A stretch of 33,556 nucleotides of DNA. It comes from a virus. Numbering within the stretch: the first letter of the stretch is position 1; every line of letters starts with the position of its first letter. A model generated the notes under the pieces. The model was given only the letters and a program-made list of their open reading frames with translations. It had not been told where the DNA came from and made no database searches. Positions 11,173 to 17,938 of the stretch are shown here, piece after piece. The stretch lies in IMG/VR virus record IMGVR_UViG_3300047409_000343, positions 1 through 33,556 of that record, one strand, 5' to 3'. Position numbers and translations under genes: made by a program.

Positions 11173-11631
11173 TCACGACGCCCGCGCCTTCGCCTGCTCG
11201 GCCTCCGCGCGACGCGACGCCTTCGCCTGCTCGGCCTCCGCGCGACGCGACGCCTTCGCCTGCTCGGCCTCCGCGCGACGCGACGCCTTCGCCTGCTCGG
11301 CCTTGAGGACCTCGGTGAGGTTGCGGAGTGCCTGCGACGCGCGGATACCGGCTGCCCGCACGCTCGCAATCGACGAGGCGGACGCTGATTCTAGGGCAAC
11401 GGCGTGGGGACAGCGTCCCCACGGTGCGACTGACGGGGCCGTCCGGTGGGACATTCCTGCGGCGACGTGGGCCGGTCGCGGCACGTCAGCGGCGATCAGC
11501 TCAGCAGCGTCGACGACCAGCTTCACCCGCCAGTGGGGAACGCGGAGCATCTGCATGACCTGCTCGGCGTCGTATCCCTCGCAGAGGGCCTCGGCGATCT
11601 GCCGATCAGTCACGGTCACGTGGCTGCTCAT
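11173..11631 (-). CDS. HTH-domain protein with tandem-repeat C-terminus
   Basis: 152 aa from ATG 11631 (overlapping the transglycosylase stop as ATGA). Residues ~8-47 (TVTDRQIAEALCEGYDAEQV, then MLRVPHWRVKLVVDAA) form a helix-turn-helix. A spacer (~50-95) leads to a helix SASSIASVRAAGIRASQALR and then to three-plus copies of an 11-residue repeat (AEQAKASRRAE), a strongly charged, probably single-helix or coiled coil tail. It may regulate the early genes or scaffold a DNA complex. It lies 5 nt upstream of rusA. The repeat number is likely to vary between related phages. Confidence 0.6.
   Translation of the reverse strand: MSSHVTVTDRQIAEALCEGYDAEQVMQMLRVPHWRVKLVVDAAELIAADVPRPAHVAAGMSHRTAPSVAPWGRCPHAVALESASASSIASVRAAGIRASQALRNLTEVLKAEQAKASRRAEAEQAKASRRAEAEQAKASRRAEAEQAKARAS
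11186..11303. repeat. 33-bp direct tandem repeat inside the HTH gene
   Basis: Three complete near-identical units (11186-11218, 11219-11251, 11252-11284) are followed by a 19-nt partial unit ending at 11303. The unit starts GCCTTCGCCTGCTCGG and ends CGACGCGAC. In the minus-strand gene it encodes an 11-aa Ala/Glu/Gln/Lys/Arg repeat. The length is a multiple of three, so copy-number change keeps the frame. The nucleotide identity between copies is complete as far as I can see, which suggests recent expansion. Confidence 0.9.
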
Positions 11632-12122
11632 GCCGGGCCACCGAGTGTCGTGCGGCACATCGCGTATGTGTTGGCCCAGCGGTGCCGGCCGCGGCCGCCG
11701 TCGAACACGGTCAGGAAGGCGCGGTCCTGGATCGCAGCCGAGTAGGAGGAGGCGTGGCCGCGCAGGCCGGTCGCGCCGTGGAACAGGCCGTCCTCGAACT
11801 GGTAGCGGCCCCAATAGCCCGGCCCCTCCGGGTTGTGCGCGAGGAGGTTGCCGTGCGATTCGAAATGCGAAATGCACAATTGCATCGCCCGTACCCAGCC
11901 CCGCGCCGTGACGGCTCTTCGCTGCGTCGCGTGCGGGGCTGGGCGATTGGGGCGGTGGAGCGACCTGGACGCCGCGCGCCACGGCTGCGAATGCGCATGC
12001 GCCCAGGTCCTCCCACCGCTGCTCTGACGGTCGGCGCGCGTTTCATCAGTCGCCTCGCACGCGGCCAAGAGCAGCGACGCCGCAGCGAAGACCAGCGCTG
12101 CAGCGGGCCTTGTGGGGGACAC
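11628..12122 (-). CDS. Lipoprotein lytic transglycosylase-like (Rpf/SLT-type) protein
   Basis: 164 aa from GTG 12122, with AAGGA at 12130-12134, 7 nt upstream. A basic N-terminus and hydrophobic stretch (AAALVFAAASLLLAAC) end in a lipobox LAAC, Cys ~22, predicting a lipid-anchored exported protein. A ~50-residue disordered linker follows. The C-terminal domain shows the transglycosylase-like pattern CISHFESHGN (catalytic Glu in 'ESHGN'), YWGRYQFEDG and ASSYSAAIQDRAF, the landmarks of resuscitation-promoting-factor-like/SLT folds. It would cleave peptidoglycan at the outer membrane face. Its location in the early operon, not the lysis cassette, is odd. Confidence 0.75.
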   Translation of the reverse strand: MSPTRPAAALVFAAASLLLAACEATDETRADRQSSGGRTWAHAHSQPWRAASRSLHRPNRPAPHATQRRAVTARGWVRAMQLCISHFESHGNLLAHNPEGPGYWGRYQFEDGLFHGATGLRGHASSYSAAIQDRAFLTVFDGGRGRHRWANTYAMCRTTLGGPA

Positions 12123-12151
12123 GGTCTGGTCCTTCGGTTGAGGGGGCCTGT

Positions 12152-12238
12152 GCCCGGGAGCGACGCGACGGGGGATGCACGCCGCTCCCGGGCGTTGAAG
12201 GTGGGCGCCGTCACCGGGGGGATGCACCGGCGCCCACC
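12152..12238 (-). promoter_or_regulatory. Two tandem hairpins with a shared loop motif
   Basis: Two perfect 11-bp inverted repeats lie in the 120-nt gap between the Trp-rich ORF and the transglycosylase gene. The first, in transcription order, pairs 12228-12238 with 12200-12210 (17-nt loop). The second pairs 12183-12193 with 12152-12162 (20-nt loop). Different stems carry the same 11-nt loop sequence (GTGCATCCCCC on the minus strand, at 12217-12227 and 12170-12180). There is no T-tract, so a simple terminator is unlikely. A paired RNA protein-binding site, attenuator or processing site is the best reading. Confidence 0.7.
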
Positions 12239-12242
12239 AGCT

Positions 12243-12341
12243 CTAGGGCGGACCGCCTGACCACTCGCCGTGGCGGGTGTTCGCCATCCACTCGCAGATC
12301 GACCAGCCGATGTACGCCGCCCACCCGCGCACCCAGCTCAT
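12243..12341 (-). CDS. 32-aa tryptophan-rich small protein
   Basis: ATG 12341 overlaps the upstream stop (ATGA); stop TAG at 12243-12245. The sequence begins MSWVRGWAAYIGWSICEW and ends GEWSGGPP; 5 of 32 residues are Trp. The first ~20 residues could form an amphipathic or membrane-associated helix. The start-stop overlap, matching every other junction of the operon, is the main evidence that it is expressed. Function unknown; too short for family assignment. Confidence 0.5.
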   Translation of the reverse strand: MSWVRGWAAYIGWSICEWMANTRHGEWSGGPP

Positions 12342-12559
12342 GACGCGGCCGCCGTCTCTGGGACCGCCGCGAGCGCTGGGCGGACCGTGAGGCCGTCGTT
12401 GATGAGCGCGTTCGCGTCGTAGTGGATGAACCGGCGCTTGCCCGACGTGCCGTACCGCAGCACGAGGACCCGATTGCCGCCGCGGTAGTCCTCGACGGTG
12501 CCGCGGATGACGACCTCGACGTCGTCTCCCTTGCGCGGGACGAACCGCTCGGCGCTCAC
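12338..12559 (-). CDS. Small beta-rich hypothetical protein
   Basis: 73 aa from GTG 12559 (GTGA overlap with RecT stop). RFVPRKGDDVEVVIRGTVED, GNRVLVLRYGTSGKRRFIHY and a C-terminal Ala-rich tail suggest a small SH3/OB-like barrel of five strands, seen often as an accessory protein near phage recombination genes. There is no Cys cluster or membrane segment. It is cotranscribed with the RecT/YqaJ pair. Function unknown. Confidence 0.55.
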   Translation of the reverse strand: MSAERFVPRKGDDVEVVIRGTVEDYRGGNRVLVLRYGTSGKRRFIHYDANALINDGLTVRPALAAVPETAAAS

Positions 12560-13596
12560 GACGTGGCCTTGCGGGCCCGGGGGGCCTTCGGAGCGGGCCC
12601 GGCCGGGGGCGGGACGTTCCCAGCGTCACCCTCGGCCGGGGGCTCAGGGTCCGGCTTGGTCCACACGTCCGCCGGGTCGTGGATCTCACCGGTGGCCGTG
12701 TCGACCAGCTCAGCGTCGACGATGTCCTCCCCCACGACCGCGGGCTTCTGCCCCGCCGCCAGCTGCTCGAGGACAGCCGCACGGGCCTCCGCGGCCTCCT
12801 TGATGCGGGCCTTCTCCCGCAGGGAGAACAGCGGCTTGTGGTCCTCGCCCTTCGCCGACATCGCGGTCCGCCACAGGTCCCGCAGCGGGTCGAGTTCGGC
12901 GCACTCCCCGATCTCGGTGAGCACCGCTGCCAGGTCCTCCGACACCGGGATCTCGGCGGCCCGGCCACGGGGATGGTCGACGCGCTCGGCCTGGACCTGC
13001 TCCAGCTCCTCCGGCAGATACGCGACTCCGGCGATGACGTCGGCGAACAGCAGCCGGCACAGGTTGGCCGTGGCGCGGGCCGCGAGCATGTTCTTCGGGT
13101 ACTTCAGGTACATGCTCGGCTTGCCACCACGCGGCAACGTCAGGCCGGCGATCTCGGCATCCTCCATGGTGAACGTGTACGACGCGTCAGTGCCGGTGTC
13201 CGTGCGGCGACCGACCGCGGTGGCGGCCAGGTGGTCGCCGCTGACGCTGACCGAGTGGCCGGCCCGCTGGACCAGGGCCCTCATCAGCTCCGCGGACATC
13301 GCGGCCTTGCCGTCGATGACGTGGATGCCCTGCAGCGCCTGCATCGGGCCGATCCCGATCTCCCGCGACGTGAGCAGGACGACGAGGATGTCCGCCCGCT
13401 TCCCGCGCAACGCGGCCGGGACGATCGACGCTTCGGAAAGCCGCTCCGCGATGACCATCAGCTGCTCGAGCTCGTCCATGCCGGGCGCCGACACCGCACG
13501 CACCAGCTGCGCGTCAGGGCGGGCCAGGTCCACGACGACCTCGGCGGTCGTGTCCTCCTCCACCGGGGTGACCGGCTCTTCGGGCTGTGCGCTCAT
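12556..13596 (-). CDS. recT: RecT-family single-strand annealing protein
   Basis: 346 aa from ATG 13596 (ATGA overlap with the exonuclease stop). A disordered acidic N-terminus (~1-45) leads into ELEQLMVIAERLSEASIVPA. The RecT core has KRADILVVLLTSREIGIGPM, GIHVIDGKAAMSAELMRALV, a beta-hairpin region (HSVSVSGDHLAATAVG), and MYLKYPKNMLAARATANLCR ending LFADVIAGVAYLPEEL (~165-210). The tail (~280-346) is Pro/Ala/Lys-rich and disordered. RecT coats single strands produced by the partner YqaJ exonuclease and anneals homologous DNA in phage replication and recombination. Downstream of its nuclease, the standard pair. Confidence 0.88.
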   Translation of the reverse strand: MSAQPEEPVTPVEEDTTAEVVVDLARPDAQLVRAVSAPGMDELEQLMVIAERLSEASIVPAALRGKRADILVVLLTSREIGIGPMQALQGIHVIDGKAAMSAELMRALVQRAGHSVSVSGDHLAATAVGRRTDTGTDASYTFTMEDAEIAGLTLPRGGKPSMYLKYPKNMLAARATANLCRLLFADVIAGVAYLPEELEQVQAERVDHPRGRAAEIPVSEDLAAVLTEIGECAELDPLRDLWRTAMSAKGEDHKPLFSLREKARIKEAAEARAAVLEQLAAGQKPAVVGEDIVDAELVDTATGEIHDPADVWTKPDPEPPAEGDAGNVPPPAGPAPKAPRARKATS

Positions 13597-14567
13597 GACG
13601 TGCGCTCCTTGCTCAGGGTGAAGCGTCGGGATCCTGCGGCGGGGGTGGTCACGCATGCCGCGTAGGCGTCCGGGTGGTCGCGTTGCAGGACAGCCACGTC
13701 GACGACAGGACTGGGCTTGCTGGTCCGGTAGGTGAAGACAGGGACGCCGCCGATCAGGCCGACCTCGGCGCTGCCGAGTAGCCCCAGCAGCCCCGCCTTC
13801 GCGTTTTCCTTGTCCGCTGCCGCGTCTTTCCCCAGGGCCGCGGCGAACCGGTAGTCCTCCAGGTACCGCTTCGCGTCGGGGCCGAGCTCGACGGCGCCTT
13901 CACGGTCGGGGTACATCCGCTGGTAAAGGCCGACGAGCAGCCCGTCGGGTTCGACGTGCGGCGCGATCTCGGCCTGCACGCACTCCCACACCCGCTCGGC
14001 CTCGGAGACCAGGAACGACTGGACCGACAGGTCCTCGTCGACGACCCGGTCCACGAGCTGCTGCCCGCCGATCAGGACGGCCAGGTGGATGTGGTCCAGG
14101 CCGGTCACGGCGAGCTGCCACTGGACCTGCGCCTCGACGGACTCCGGGACGGCGCCGTTGGCCCACTCGTCGGCCTTCCACGCCGACCGGGTCTTGACCT
14201 CCAGGGCGCACGGGCCGCGGTCGCAGCCGAACACCTTGCGGTCCAGGGAGCACCGCCGCCACGGCTGCCCGATGTGCGCGACCAGGCCGAGCCGGGCGAC
14301 GCGCATCCGGACGCGGTCGGCCCACGCGCGGGCGACGACGTCCTCGAGGTCGATACCCCACTCGGCAGCCTCGGACGGGTCCTCGTCATCGACCAGGCCG
14401 AGCTTGTCTGCCCAGACTGTCATCGCGTTGCCGTACTTGCTCAGCCCGAGGATGGCCGCGAGGTCGGATGAGCCGATGCCGTGCCGGCGCTCGGCCAGCC
14501 ACGCCTCGCGGGACGCGTCCGCGCGCAGCACCAGGGCCGCGGTCGGGGTGACCCGACGGGCCGTCAT
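13593..14567 (-). CDS. YqaJ-like (lambda-type) exonuclease
   Basis: 324 aa from ATG 14567 (ATGA overlap). PD-(D/E)XK features are visible: RHGIGSSDLAAILGLSKYG (~29-47), WGIDLEDVVA with E75, SLDRKVFG with D109, and LEVKTRSAW with E123 and K125. The helix VEAQVQWQLAVTG (144 onward) is the conserved YqaJ Gln-containing helix. The enzyme degrades one strand of duplex DNA to give substrate for RecT. Helical C-terminal extension (~230-324). The two genes form a coupled two-component recombination system. Confidence 0.92.
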   Translation of the reverse strand: MTARRVTPTAALVLRADASREAWLAERRHGIGSSDLAAILGLSKYGNAMTVWADKLGLVDDEDPSEAAEWGIDLEDVVARAWADRVRMRVARLGLVAHIGQPWRRCSLDRKVFGCDRGPCALEVKTRSAWKADEWANGAVPESVEAQVQWQLAVTGLDHIHLAVLIGGQQLVDRVVDEDLSVQSFLVSEAERVWECVQAEIAPHVEPDGLLVGLYQRMYPDREGAVELGPDAKRYLEDYRFAAALGKDAAADKENAKAGLLGLLGSAEVGLIGGVPVFTYRTSKPSPVVDVAVLQRDHPDAYAACVTTPAAGSRRFTLSKERTS

Positions 14568-14860
14568 GACCCGCCGCCATTCGGCGAGCCCGGCACGATC
14601 AGCCCGGACGTGTGCGGCACGGCGAGCCCGGACTTGGCCTGCTTCCCGCTCGATCGCAGGAGCCCCCCGACGGTGATCGCCGCATCCGGGTCCAGGAACA
14701 GCACGTTCTGACCCATCGGGGAGTTGACGACCAGGACCACGAGGTTCCCCGTGGGCGTGGTCATGACCTGGACGGTGAAGGACAGCGGCACCGGCTGGAC
14801 CTGGACCGCCGGCACGGCGCCCGGCGGGATCGCGCCGGCGGGGATCGGCTGCTCGGTCAT
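14564..14860 (-). CDS. Hypothetical Pro/Val-rich protein
   Basis: 98 aa from ATG 14860 (ATGA overlap). A Pro/Ala/Val N-terminus (PIPAGAIPPGAVPAVQVQPV) leads to a beta-strand pair LSFTVQVMTTPTGNLVVLVV, then MGQNVLFLDPDAAITVGGLL, LRSSGKQAKSGLAVP and a Gly-rich tail. No membrane or Cys motif. The C-terminal helix is preceded by a DPDAA-x-x-x-G turn, a pattern I have seen in short actinophage early proteins. Function unknown; coupled to YqaJ. Confidence 0.5.
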   Translation of the reverse strand: MTEQPIPAGAIPPGAVPAVQVQPVPLSFTVQVMTTPTGNLVVLVVNSPMGQNVLFLDPDAAITVGGLLRSSGKQAKSGLAVPHTSGLIVPGSPNGGGS

Positions 14861-15030
14861 GGTGCGCACGTTCCGTAGCCGCCGGTCGGCTGCCAGCACA
14901 CATCGGTGGCGCCGGCCATGAACGCGGCGAAGAACACCACGACCAGCAGTAGGAGGAGGGCGCGGCGGCCGCGGCGGGTGAGCCGGACGGCGGGGGGCCG
15001 ATGCCGAGTGGTCTCGGCGGGGAACCTCAC
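14857..15030 (-). CDS. 57-aa single-TM membrane protein
   Basis: GTG 15030 overlaps the zinc-ribbon stop (GTGA), and its own TGA overlaps the next ATG. A basic N-terminus (HRPPAVRLTRRGRRA) is followed by one hydrophobic helix LLLLLVVVFFAAFMAGA and a short outside tail with two Cys (VCWQPTGGYGTCAP). The positive-inside rule places the C-terminus outside, where the Cys pair could form a disulphide. It is too short to be found by usual length cut-offs. The perfect overlaps at both ends support it. Function unknown; could be a superinfection or membrane modulator. Confidence 0.5.
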   Translation of the reverse strand: MRFPAETTRHRPPAVRLTRRGRRALLLLLVVVFFAAFMAGATDVCWQPTGGYGTCAP

Positions 15031-15630: not shown

Positions 15631-15825
15631 TCAGGCGGACTGTTCGGTCAGGAGTGCCTCGACGTCCTCACGACGAAACCGGGGCTGACCGCCGGGTGTG
15701 CGCAGGGCGGTCACTCGGCCGGCTGCGACGTACCGCTGGAAGGTCCGGGGGCTGACCCTCAGGAGGTCGGCGGCCTCGGCCTGGGTGAGGATCGCCGGGG
15801 CGTCCAGGTCATTCCGCTGCGTCAT
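15631..15825 (-). CDS. xis: Excisionase-like (MerR/AlpA HTH) protein
   Basis: 64 aa from ATG 15825. ILTQAEAADLLRVSPRTFQR, then YVAAGRVTALRTPGGQPRFR, then REDVEALL is a complete excisionase-type winged helix: HTH with 'TQAEAADLL-VSPRT', followed by the G-x-P-x-x-R-F/R-R-x-D wing motif. Proteins of this type bind att arms to favour excision or act as Cro-like regulators. It diverges from the repressor and has its own promoter (15832-15860). No ribosome binding site precedes the ATG, consistent with a leaderless transcript. Frame extension to 15888 would overlap the promoter and is rejected. Confidence 0.75.
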   Translation of the reverse strand: MTQRNDLDAPAILTQAEAADLLRVSPRTFQRYVAAGRVTALRTPGGQPRFRREDVEALLTEQSA

Positions 15826-15831
15826 GGATTG

Positions 15832-15860
15832 ACCGTAACGGCGTAGACATGCCACGTCAA
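15832..15860 (-). promoter_or_regulatory. Sigma70-type promoter for the excisionase-like/early operon
   Basis: On the minus strand, TTGACG (15855-15860) and TACGGT (15832-15837) are separated by exactly 17 nt. That is a near-consensus actinobacterial -35/-10 pair. The -10 ends about 7 nt before the ATG at 15825, so transcription would start at or next to the start codon. This is the strongest promoter signature in the window. Confidence 0.75.
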
Positions 15861-15897
15861 GTACGGACAAGGTATGTCGCAGTGGCAAGTTATGGCG

Positions 15898-15903
15898 TAC
15901 GGT
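15898..15903 (+). promoter_or_regulatory. Candidate -10 box for the repressor
   Basis: TACGGT lies 8 nt upstream of the repressor ATG at 15912, the same hexamer as the divergent promoter. There is no convincing -35 (TGTCGC at 15875-15880 is weak). Such short spacing would make the mRNA leaderless, consistent with the missing ribosome binding site. A weak promoter that the repressor itself regulates would fit. Confidence 0.4.
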
Positions 15904-15911
15904 GTCGTGAC

Positions 15912-16231
15912 ATGACTACGGACGAGGCCGTCGGCGCCAAGATCCACGAACTGATCTGGTCTCGACGCAAGACGCAGACAGCCCTCGCCCGCGCCCTTGG
16001 AATCACACAGGGCGCGGCCTCGAAGAAGATCCGGGGGGAGCGCCCCTTCTCGGCCGCCGAGATCATCGGCGCCGCGCGCTTCCTGGACGCCACACCCGGC
16101 GAGCTGCTCGATGAGGTCGCCGCTGCTACTACCCGTGGGTGTTTCGCCGATAGGCGCCAGTCGGGGGCCATTACTCAAGATCACCGGCGCGCATGGCCGA
16201 TGATCTCCCCTGGGGGGGAACCGAGCCATGA
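15912..16231 (+). CDS. XRE-family HTH immunity repressor (C-terminus frame uncertain)
   Basis: Starts ATG 15912. TDEAVGAKIHELIWSRRKTQ, TALARALGITQGAASKKIRG and ERPFSAAEIIGAARFLDATP form a Cro/C1-type HTH of ~70 residues. The downstream frame runs, as written, to 16469 through the integrase in the wrong frame. One extra G in the G7 run at 16212-16218 would instead end the protein at TGA 16229-16231, an ATGA overlap with the integrase start. That gives ~106 aa. It is probably the lysogeny repressor, adjacent to and divergent from the Xis-like gene. Confidence 0.7.
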
Positions 16232-17022
16232 CCTACACCGCCGCGCATCTCGCGCACCTGACTCTGGCCGGTTACTCCGGCCGCACGATCGGCGCCCGCA
16301 AGGACGTCCTACGCCGGTTCCACGCCGAGCTGGGACGGGACCTGCTCACCGCCGACCGCTACGACCTGGCCACCTGGCTGGGCCGGGACCTGGCGCCCGA
16401 GTCACGGCGCGCCTACCGCTCCCATCTGGTCGGGTTCTACCGCTGGTGTGTCGACGAAGGGCTGCTTGAGATGTCTCCGGCGGACCGGATCCCGGCAATC
16501 AAGGTGCCGCGACGACTGCCGCGGCCGATCGCCGCGGACGAGCTGTCGATCGCGCTCCGTCACGCGGACGCCCGGATGCGGGCCTGGCTGACCCTGATGG
16601 CCTACGGCGGGCTGCGCTGCATGGAGGTCGCCGCGCTGCGGCCCCGGGACATCGAGCCCGGCCCGCCAGTGCTGCTGTGGCTTCGCGTGACCAAGGGCGG
16701 GGGAGACGCGGTCGTCCCAGCCCATCCGGCGATCCTCGAAGCCCTGGCCGAGCTGCCTATCCGGGCCGGCTGCTGGTGGGACGTAGCCCCTCAGACCGTG
16801 TCGAAGCTCGTCGGGCTGCACTTGAAGGGCTGCGGGATCGACGCGTCGGCGCACCGGCTGCGGCACTACGCCGGCACCGCCTGGTACCGAGCGTCGGGGA
16901 ACGACCTGCTGGTCACGGCCCAGCTTCTGCGGCACGCTTCGGTTGGAACGACGCAGGGGTACGCGGCCATCAGTCCTGAGCGGGCGGCAGAGGTCGTCCG
17001 GTCCCTACCCACAGTCGCGTGA
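16228..17022 (+). CDS. int: Tyrosine recombinase (integrase)
   Basis: 264 aa. The N-terminal ~95 residues form the SAM-like core-binding domain (RTIGARKDVLRRFHAELGRD, then AYRSHLVGFYRWCVDEGLL). The catalytic domain has R130 (YGGLRCMEV), K156 (TKGGG), H209-x-x-R212 (AHRLRHYAG), H236 (LLRHASVGTTQGYA) and nucleophile Y245. It lacks the N-terminal arm-binding domain of larger phage integrases, resembling XerC/D-size enzymes. It recombines the phage attP with a host tRNA. Plus strand, so co-oriented with the repressor and opposite to the lytic genes. GGGGGG precedes the ATG as a ribosome binding site. Likely tRNA-Thr target at 17773-17845. Confidence 0.93.
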   Translation: MTYTAAHLAHLTLAGYSGRTIGARKDVLRRFHAELGRDLLTADRYDLATWLGRDLAPESRRAYRSHLVGFYRWCVDEGLLEMSPADRIPAIKVPRRLPRPIAADELSIALRHADARMRAWLTLMAYGGLRCMEVAALRPRDIEPGPPVLLWLRVTKGGGDAVVPAHPAILEALAELPIRAGCWWDVAPQTVSKLVGLHLKGCGIDASAHRLRHYAGTAWYRASGNDLLVTAQLLRHASVGTTQGYAAISPERAAEVVRSLPTVA

Positions 17023-17772: not shown

Positions 17773-17845
17773 CCCTCCGTAGCTCAGCGGACAGAGCAGG
17801 GGCCTCGTAATCCCAATGTCGCTGGTTCGAATCCAGCCGGGGGGA
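17773..17845 (+). tRNA. tRNA-Thr (anticodon CGT) or tRNA-like attP core
   Basis: 73 nt fold into a cloverleaf: acceptor 17773-17779/17838-17844 (7 pairs with one T-G), D-stem GCTC/GAGC, anticodon CGT at 17806-17808 in CTCGTAA, and T-arm GCTGG-TTCGAAT-CCAGC. No CCA is encoded. The anticodon stem 17799-17803/17811-17815 has mismatches at both ends (G-A and C-T) with three G-C pairs between. The 3' half from the anticodon loop looks like an actinobacterial tRNA-Thr(CGT). Next to an integrase, this suggests an attP core with a phage-derived 5' half. Confidence 0.7.
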
Positions 17846-17938
17846 CGAGGGTCGGCGTTCCTTGCCATGTCTCCTGACGGTTCCCCCCTGCAAGGGTTTC
17901 CCGCCAGACCGGCACGATACCCACAGATTATGGTCCTA

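Follow-up and report, generated by a model that had tools for sequence, protein, structure and literature searches.

Why should two neighbouring hairpins in a virus genome carry the same loop on stems that have nothing in common, and with what might such loops interact? The question arises from the record IMGVR_UViG_3300047409_000343, analysed here over its whole length of 33,556 nt (the window), which carries temperate-phage genes. An earlier note on this DNA had described two tandem perfect 11-bp hairpins with unrelated stems and a common 11-nt loop motif, and had held that selection acts on the loop while the stems merely present it. In this study the pair was compared with that of locus L019, which belongs to a viral contig of 58 kb (phage G002, hereafter the relative), which was reached through homology of the lipoprotein gene next to the hairpins.

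Sequence and fold of the hairpin pair

The tandem pair was found as described, at 12152-12238 on the minus strand, and its two stems are unrelated to each other. Its parts are as follows.

12238-12200, minus strand: hairpin H1, with stem GGTGGGCGCCG/CGGCGCCCACC of 10-11 bp and a 17-19 nt loop containing CAUCCCCCCGG
12217..12227, minus strand: loop motif of H1, GTGCATCCCCC (RNA letters common to both loops, GUGCAUCCCCC)
12193-12152, minus strand: hairpin H2, with the perfect 11-bp stem GCCCGGGAGCG/CGCTCCCGGGC
12168..12177, minus strand: loop core of H2, CAUCCCCCGU, identical to the relative at 10/10 positions
12135..12146, minus strand: C-rich single-stranded tail CCCCCUCAACCG 3' of H2, with CCCCCUCAAACCG as its counterpart at the same place in L019

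The loop of H1 reads GTGCATCCCCCCGGTGA (also written GUGCAUCCCCCCGGUGA), and the stem of H2 extends inward to 17 bp by way of G-U pairs and a single bulged U, with AUCCCCC as the closing loop. The predicted probability of UCCCCC being unpaired is 0.72 in the H1 loop and 0.96 in the H2 loop of the window, with 0.86 and 0.97 respectively in the relative. The motif GTGCATCCCCC occurs exactly twice in the 33.6-kb contig, both times in this hairpin pair; it is no dispersed DNA repeat. Unrelated repeats of it elsewhere were what the earlier note had named as speaking against its reading.

Counting nested registers, 12 perfect hairpins of 10 bp or more are found in the window, and H1 with H2 forms the sole tandem pair amongst them. 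Forty dinucleotide shuffles gave a mean of 0.075 tandem pairs, and none of the 40 had a common loop 10-mer. The minus strand folded with a z-score of -3.9, the plus strand with one of -2.0.

Gene order and compensatory change in two phages

The genes around the hairpins, all on the minus strand, are listed below.

11628..12122, minus strand: lipoprotein (VSPTRPAAALVFAAASLLLAAC...) with a transglycosylase-like domain, its GTG start 29 nt after H2
12243..12341, minus strand: 32-aa ORF (MSWVRGWAAYIG...), ending with its stop codon 4 nt ahead of H1; L019 lacks this ORF
12338..12559, minus strand: conserved 73-aa gene upstream of the RNA; in L019 a homologue of 52% identity immediately precedes the RNA
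12556-13656, minus strand: RecT
13593-14903, minus strand: RecE
15631-15888, minus strand: excisionase-like gene
minus strand: RusA and DnaB genes

In both phages the hairpin pair occupies nearly the whole of an intercistronic gap. The layout in the relative is the 73-aa homologue, whose stop itself sits 4 nt before H1, then two tandem hairpins and a homologous lipoprotein-transglycosylase gene. The position before such a gene, which the earlier note had given, is that of both phages, the transglycosylase domain (PF06737) being weak in the window lipoprotein (E 0.0047) and clear in that of the relative (2.3e-13). The lipoprotein gene has diverged between the two phages apart from some 55 nt (window 11930-12060, minus strand; L019 3045-3160) that are nearly identical. 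This stretch reads GACCTGGGCGCATGCGCA.TC.CAGCC.TGGCGCGC..CCAGGTCGC, encodes the peptide WAHAHSQPWRA and folds as a long hairpin, possibly a DNA or RNA element inside the gene. Two other features of the window were observed: an in-frame GEGVASRGGRA / EQAKASRRAEA repeat, visible in several frames, at the N-terminus of the RusA-type ORF (11173-11330), and a strongly G/C-homopolymeric contig end (33503-33556; GGGGGGGGG..CCCCCCCC), which is possibly an assembly artefact.

The hairpins of the relative fold in nearly the same way as those of the window, and its H2 (L019 2884-2925) has the same 42-nt length and the same dot-bracket string. MAFFT misaligned H2 because the stems have almost no sequence in common, a difficulty solved by an ungapped comparison together with a structure-guided alignment. 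In the ungapped comparison, 13 of the 17 pairs of H2 were changed on both sides, four were unchanged and none was broken; stem identity was only 6/32, as against 10/10 for the loop CAUCCCCCGU. The 10-bp stem of H1 showed two double changes and eight unchanged pairs, with a loop core of CACUCCCCCGG in the relative versus CAUCCCCCCGG in the window. The identity of the 11-nt motif thus holds for both loops of the window, whereas only the core of its 11 letters is kept in the relative.

The structure-guided alignment, which used a model from the window alone, gave 100% paired cells compared with 35-51% for slid-partner controls, with 8 double changes, even though it prefers a shifted register. The RNA model built from the window alone also detected L019, at 34.6 bits (E 1e-4). 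Both the covariation and the recurrence of the loop on different stems, which the earlier note had proposed to look for in related phages, were hence observed. In the minus-strand reading H2 contains two G-U pairs per phage, which would be A-C mismatches on the plus strand, indicating a minus-strand RNA. It is well supported by these sequence comparisons that the element is a selected, structured minus-strand RNA, in which the stems would serve as scaffolds and the loops are the conserved part, much as had been suggested.

The window and L019/G002 are the only two members found. Scans of viral contigs for exact patterns (double GTGCATCCCC; CATCCCCCG..CCCCTCAA; TCCCCC..CATCCCCCGT; double CATCCCCC, the last judged among the matches listed) returned, besides L019, only coding tandem repeats, palindromic arrays and scattered matches, and a two-hairpin filter over the collected loci retained only the copies of the window and L019. 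Tandem C5-loop hairpins are rare, since over 1.96 Mb a laxer filter gave, apart from copies of the two known members, a single pair. This pair, in Thermobifida phage P1312, was dismissed because it lies inside an annotated coding sequence, and a peptide-motif DNA pattern gave three matches in genome contigs, all unrelated. A palindromic GGGGGTGCATCCCCC repeat array with long stems in IMGVR_UViG_2862507626_000003 (L005 12210-12330) resembles the element in sequence and differs from it in architecture. For the 73-aa protein, no relative was found in phages, plasmids, GTDB contigs and 396 Actinomycetota genomes, and a further 396 genomes gave two weak matches, both without the RNA. RNA model R2 gave no match in 396 Actinomycetota genomes under strict filters, with 10 candidates scored in each genome, and the locus of TunaTartare, a Streptomyces phage with a related hydrolase domain, gave no match.

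The integrase leader as a candidate pairing partner

The earlier note had advised a search for a partner RNA complementary to the loop, and a candidate G-tract is present in the integrase leader of each phage. The features concerned in the window are the following.

15849..16469, plus strand: ORF with a repressor-type HTH (phrog_4583, E 7.1e-12), upstream of the integrase and overlapping its start
16202..16230, plus strand: integrase leader ATCTCCCCTGGGGGGGAACCGAGCCATG, with a G7 ribosome-binding site, the proposed partner of the C-rich loops
16228..17022, plus strand: tyrosine integrase (PHROG_1 / PF00589), the proposed target

In the window GGGGGGGA immediately precedes the integrase start codon, and the leader of the homologous integrase in G002 is ATCTCCTGGGGGGGATGATG. 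The two integrases are 39% identical and lie on the strand opposite to the RNA in both phages; the repressor-type HTH ORF directly before the integrase is found in the same order in G002. Common to both leaders is ATCTCC(CC)TGGGGGGGA (window 16195-16235, L188 8739-8779). The GGGGGGA of the window leader complements UCCCCCC of the H1 loop over 7 bp, while in G002 it is the H2 loop UCAUCCCCC that would pair over 9 nt with GGGGGAUGA (match to GGGGGATGA), spanning the integrase start codon. About 750 nt downstream of the window integrase there is a tRNA-like gene with no clear anticodon (17773-17846), perhaps the remnant of an attachment site.

When genes were ranked by duplex energy at their called starts, the integrase came first of 42 in the window and second of 70 in G002, on gene lists from a crude gene caller and with similar energies reached by other G002 genes. 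GGGGGA within 25 nt before a called start was found for the integrase alone in each phage, and counting internal starts added one further gene per phage. G-rich sites are common in high-GC DNA. The integrase was chosen as target after inspection, and by our own estimate the chance of one orthologue topping both lists is a few per cent. Immediately before the G-runs in both leaders stands CUCC(CC), with which they can also pair in cis, and such a leader hairpin, masking the ribosome-binding site, may alone account for the conservation of the G-run. Five relatives of the integrase (MagicMan, Rem711, Hedwig and the bacterial genomes G141 and G280) had no G-run at the start, and their sequences gave no RNA match above chance. 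In another record (IMGVR_UViG_2740891882_000003, L055 2235-2350), a single 11-bp hairpin with apical CAUCCCCCGU was observed; it follows an integrase-like gene and precedes an HTH gene, the leader of which holds GCGGGGGAU, complementary to the hairpin loop; this is possibly a cis version of the same pairing.

C-rich loops that pair with G-tracts are known from the 6C/B11 RNAs of actinobacteria, which have two such loops (PMC4046766). Their pairing with the G-tracts of ribosome-binding sites was demonstrated by loop and target mutations with compensation in M. abscessus (PMC10470900) and M. marinum (PMC12395582). The phage element resembles them in its two stem-loops with C-run loops, its length of about 100 nt and its actinobacterial setting, but it is phage-encoded and intercistronic, is without a terminator U-tract, has the loop core AUCCCCC and not a pure C-run, and has unrelated stems. 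Tandem stem-loops with about six C per loop are a trait of 6C (PMC4046766), and the loops here hold six and five C in the window and five and five in L019, at the lower edge of that trait. No Rfam family matched over the element at gathering thresholds. The 6C model (RF01066) gave no match in the window at the cut-off of 47 bits, in the whole contig or in L019, nor in 11900-12500 with E up to 10. Scr3202 (RF02833), which likewise consists of two hairpins with C-rich loops, was the best-scoring bacterial family in both phages once the threshold was made permissive, with 21.0 bits in the window and 15.5 bits in L019 against a cut-off of 52. By their models, the element is outside both 6C and Scr3202, and it likely works like 6C/B11.

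The Streptomyces sRNAs scr5583 and scr1434 are expressed and combine a stable stem with a C-rich terminal loop; unlike the phage element, they are chromosomal and are described with a single C-rich loop (PMC3765725). Amongst phages, the small RNAs sar of P22, OOP of lambda and c4 pair with messages of the lysis-lysogeny switch, in a 2025 review of phage sRNAs that makes no mention of integrase or of C-rich loops (PMC12197685). Those RNAs act on ant, cII and similar messages, whereas the pairing considered here is short and loop-based. The sib retroregulation of lambda acts in cis on the int message through RNase III. The proposed system would be like sib in that integrase output falls while lytic transcription runs, and unlike it in acting in trans, at the ribosome-binding site.

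The mechanism that we propose is as follows. The RNA would be transcribed together with the leftward recombination genes, and the functions of these minus-strand genes suggest that they are expressed in the lytic cycle. Its two rigid GC-rich hairpins would each display a single-stranded C-rich loop with the core AUCCCCC, and the loops would pair with G-runs at ribosome-binding sites, blocking translation in the manner of actinobacterial 6C/B11. The leader of the phage's own integrase on the opposite strand is the best-supported partner. As the RNA is on the strand opposite to the HTH ORF and the integrase, the effect would be in trans, and lytic transcription would switch off integrase synthesis. 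That the phage RNA is 6C/B11-like and silences its own integrase in trans by pairing with the leader is given a little under an even chance. In our analysis a partner made of RNA, namely a G-rich ribosome-binding site, is favoured over a protein, with the integrase leader as the best candidate. A fuller proposal is put forward only tentatively: a new family of actinophage trans-acting RNAs, the C-rich loops of which, encoded in a lytic operon, would pair with the G7 site of the integrase and silence lysogeny, with the leader hairpin that masks the SD as a second layer.

Other explanations of the paired loops

Instead of pairing in trans, the element may act in cis within the operon mRNA, its loops binding a phage or host protein or controlling processing, stability or translation between the 73-aa and lipoprotein genes. 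This seems unlikely, if still plausible, and it agrees with the position of the hairpins, which fill nearly all of the intercistronic gap from 4 nt past a stop codon in both phages. One loop motif placed twice in different stems is also the typical pattern of a protein-binding site. The 73-aa gene adjoins the element in both phages and the homologue in the relative showed a very weak Lsm match (E 0.16), but no RNA-binding family was identified, the window protein having no significant family match in profile searches and a structure model (pLDDT 59) too poor for interpretation.

It is rather improbable that a 6C-like RNA is directed at host messages, repressing G-rich ribosome-binding sites or competing with the 6C of the host. 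The loop chemistry is the same as that of 6C/B11 and Scr3202 (PMC10470900) and B11 acts broadly on G-rich leaders, yet the match with the integrase leader of the phage itself would be left unexplained.

The two hairpins, very stable, GC-rich and lying between genes, might also be taken for tandem transcription terminators or barriers separating two transcription units, and terminators without U are thought to exist in high-GC Gram-positives. The C-rich loops would not be foreign to such a role, as they are present on the terminator of B11 too (PMC12395582). We consider it quite improbable, however, as there is no U-tract and no intrinsic terminator site was found in 11900-12700, an invariant loop is not needed for termination, and the downstream gene is close and co-directional. 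A promoter search at the site gave no sigma-70-like match, which, like the missing U-tract terminator, says little in an actinobacterium.

A role in DNA, as single-stranded hairpins for replication or recombination or as a fold-back protein site, would suit the location among RecE/RecT/RusA-type genes and is very improbable, given that the G-U pairs are formed in one strand only and that the minus strand folds better; wobble confined to one strand, together with compensatory changes, speaks for RNA. Some mycobacteriophages have an RNA-based replication origin with counter-transcribed RNAs (PMC7157519). An origin of that kind was rejected here, since its loops should differ from phage to phage rather than remain identical.

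The preferred reading, pairing of the loops with the integrase leader, would, if true, mean that phages, too, employ the C-rich-loop pairing of the mycobacterial 6C/B11 RNAs. The locus offers a system in which such pairing could be tested, as its two loops and single G-tract are short and natural variants differ entirely in their stems. It would also give an actinophage a simple RNA route to stop integration once its lytic genes are on.
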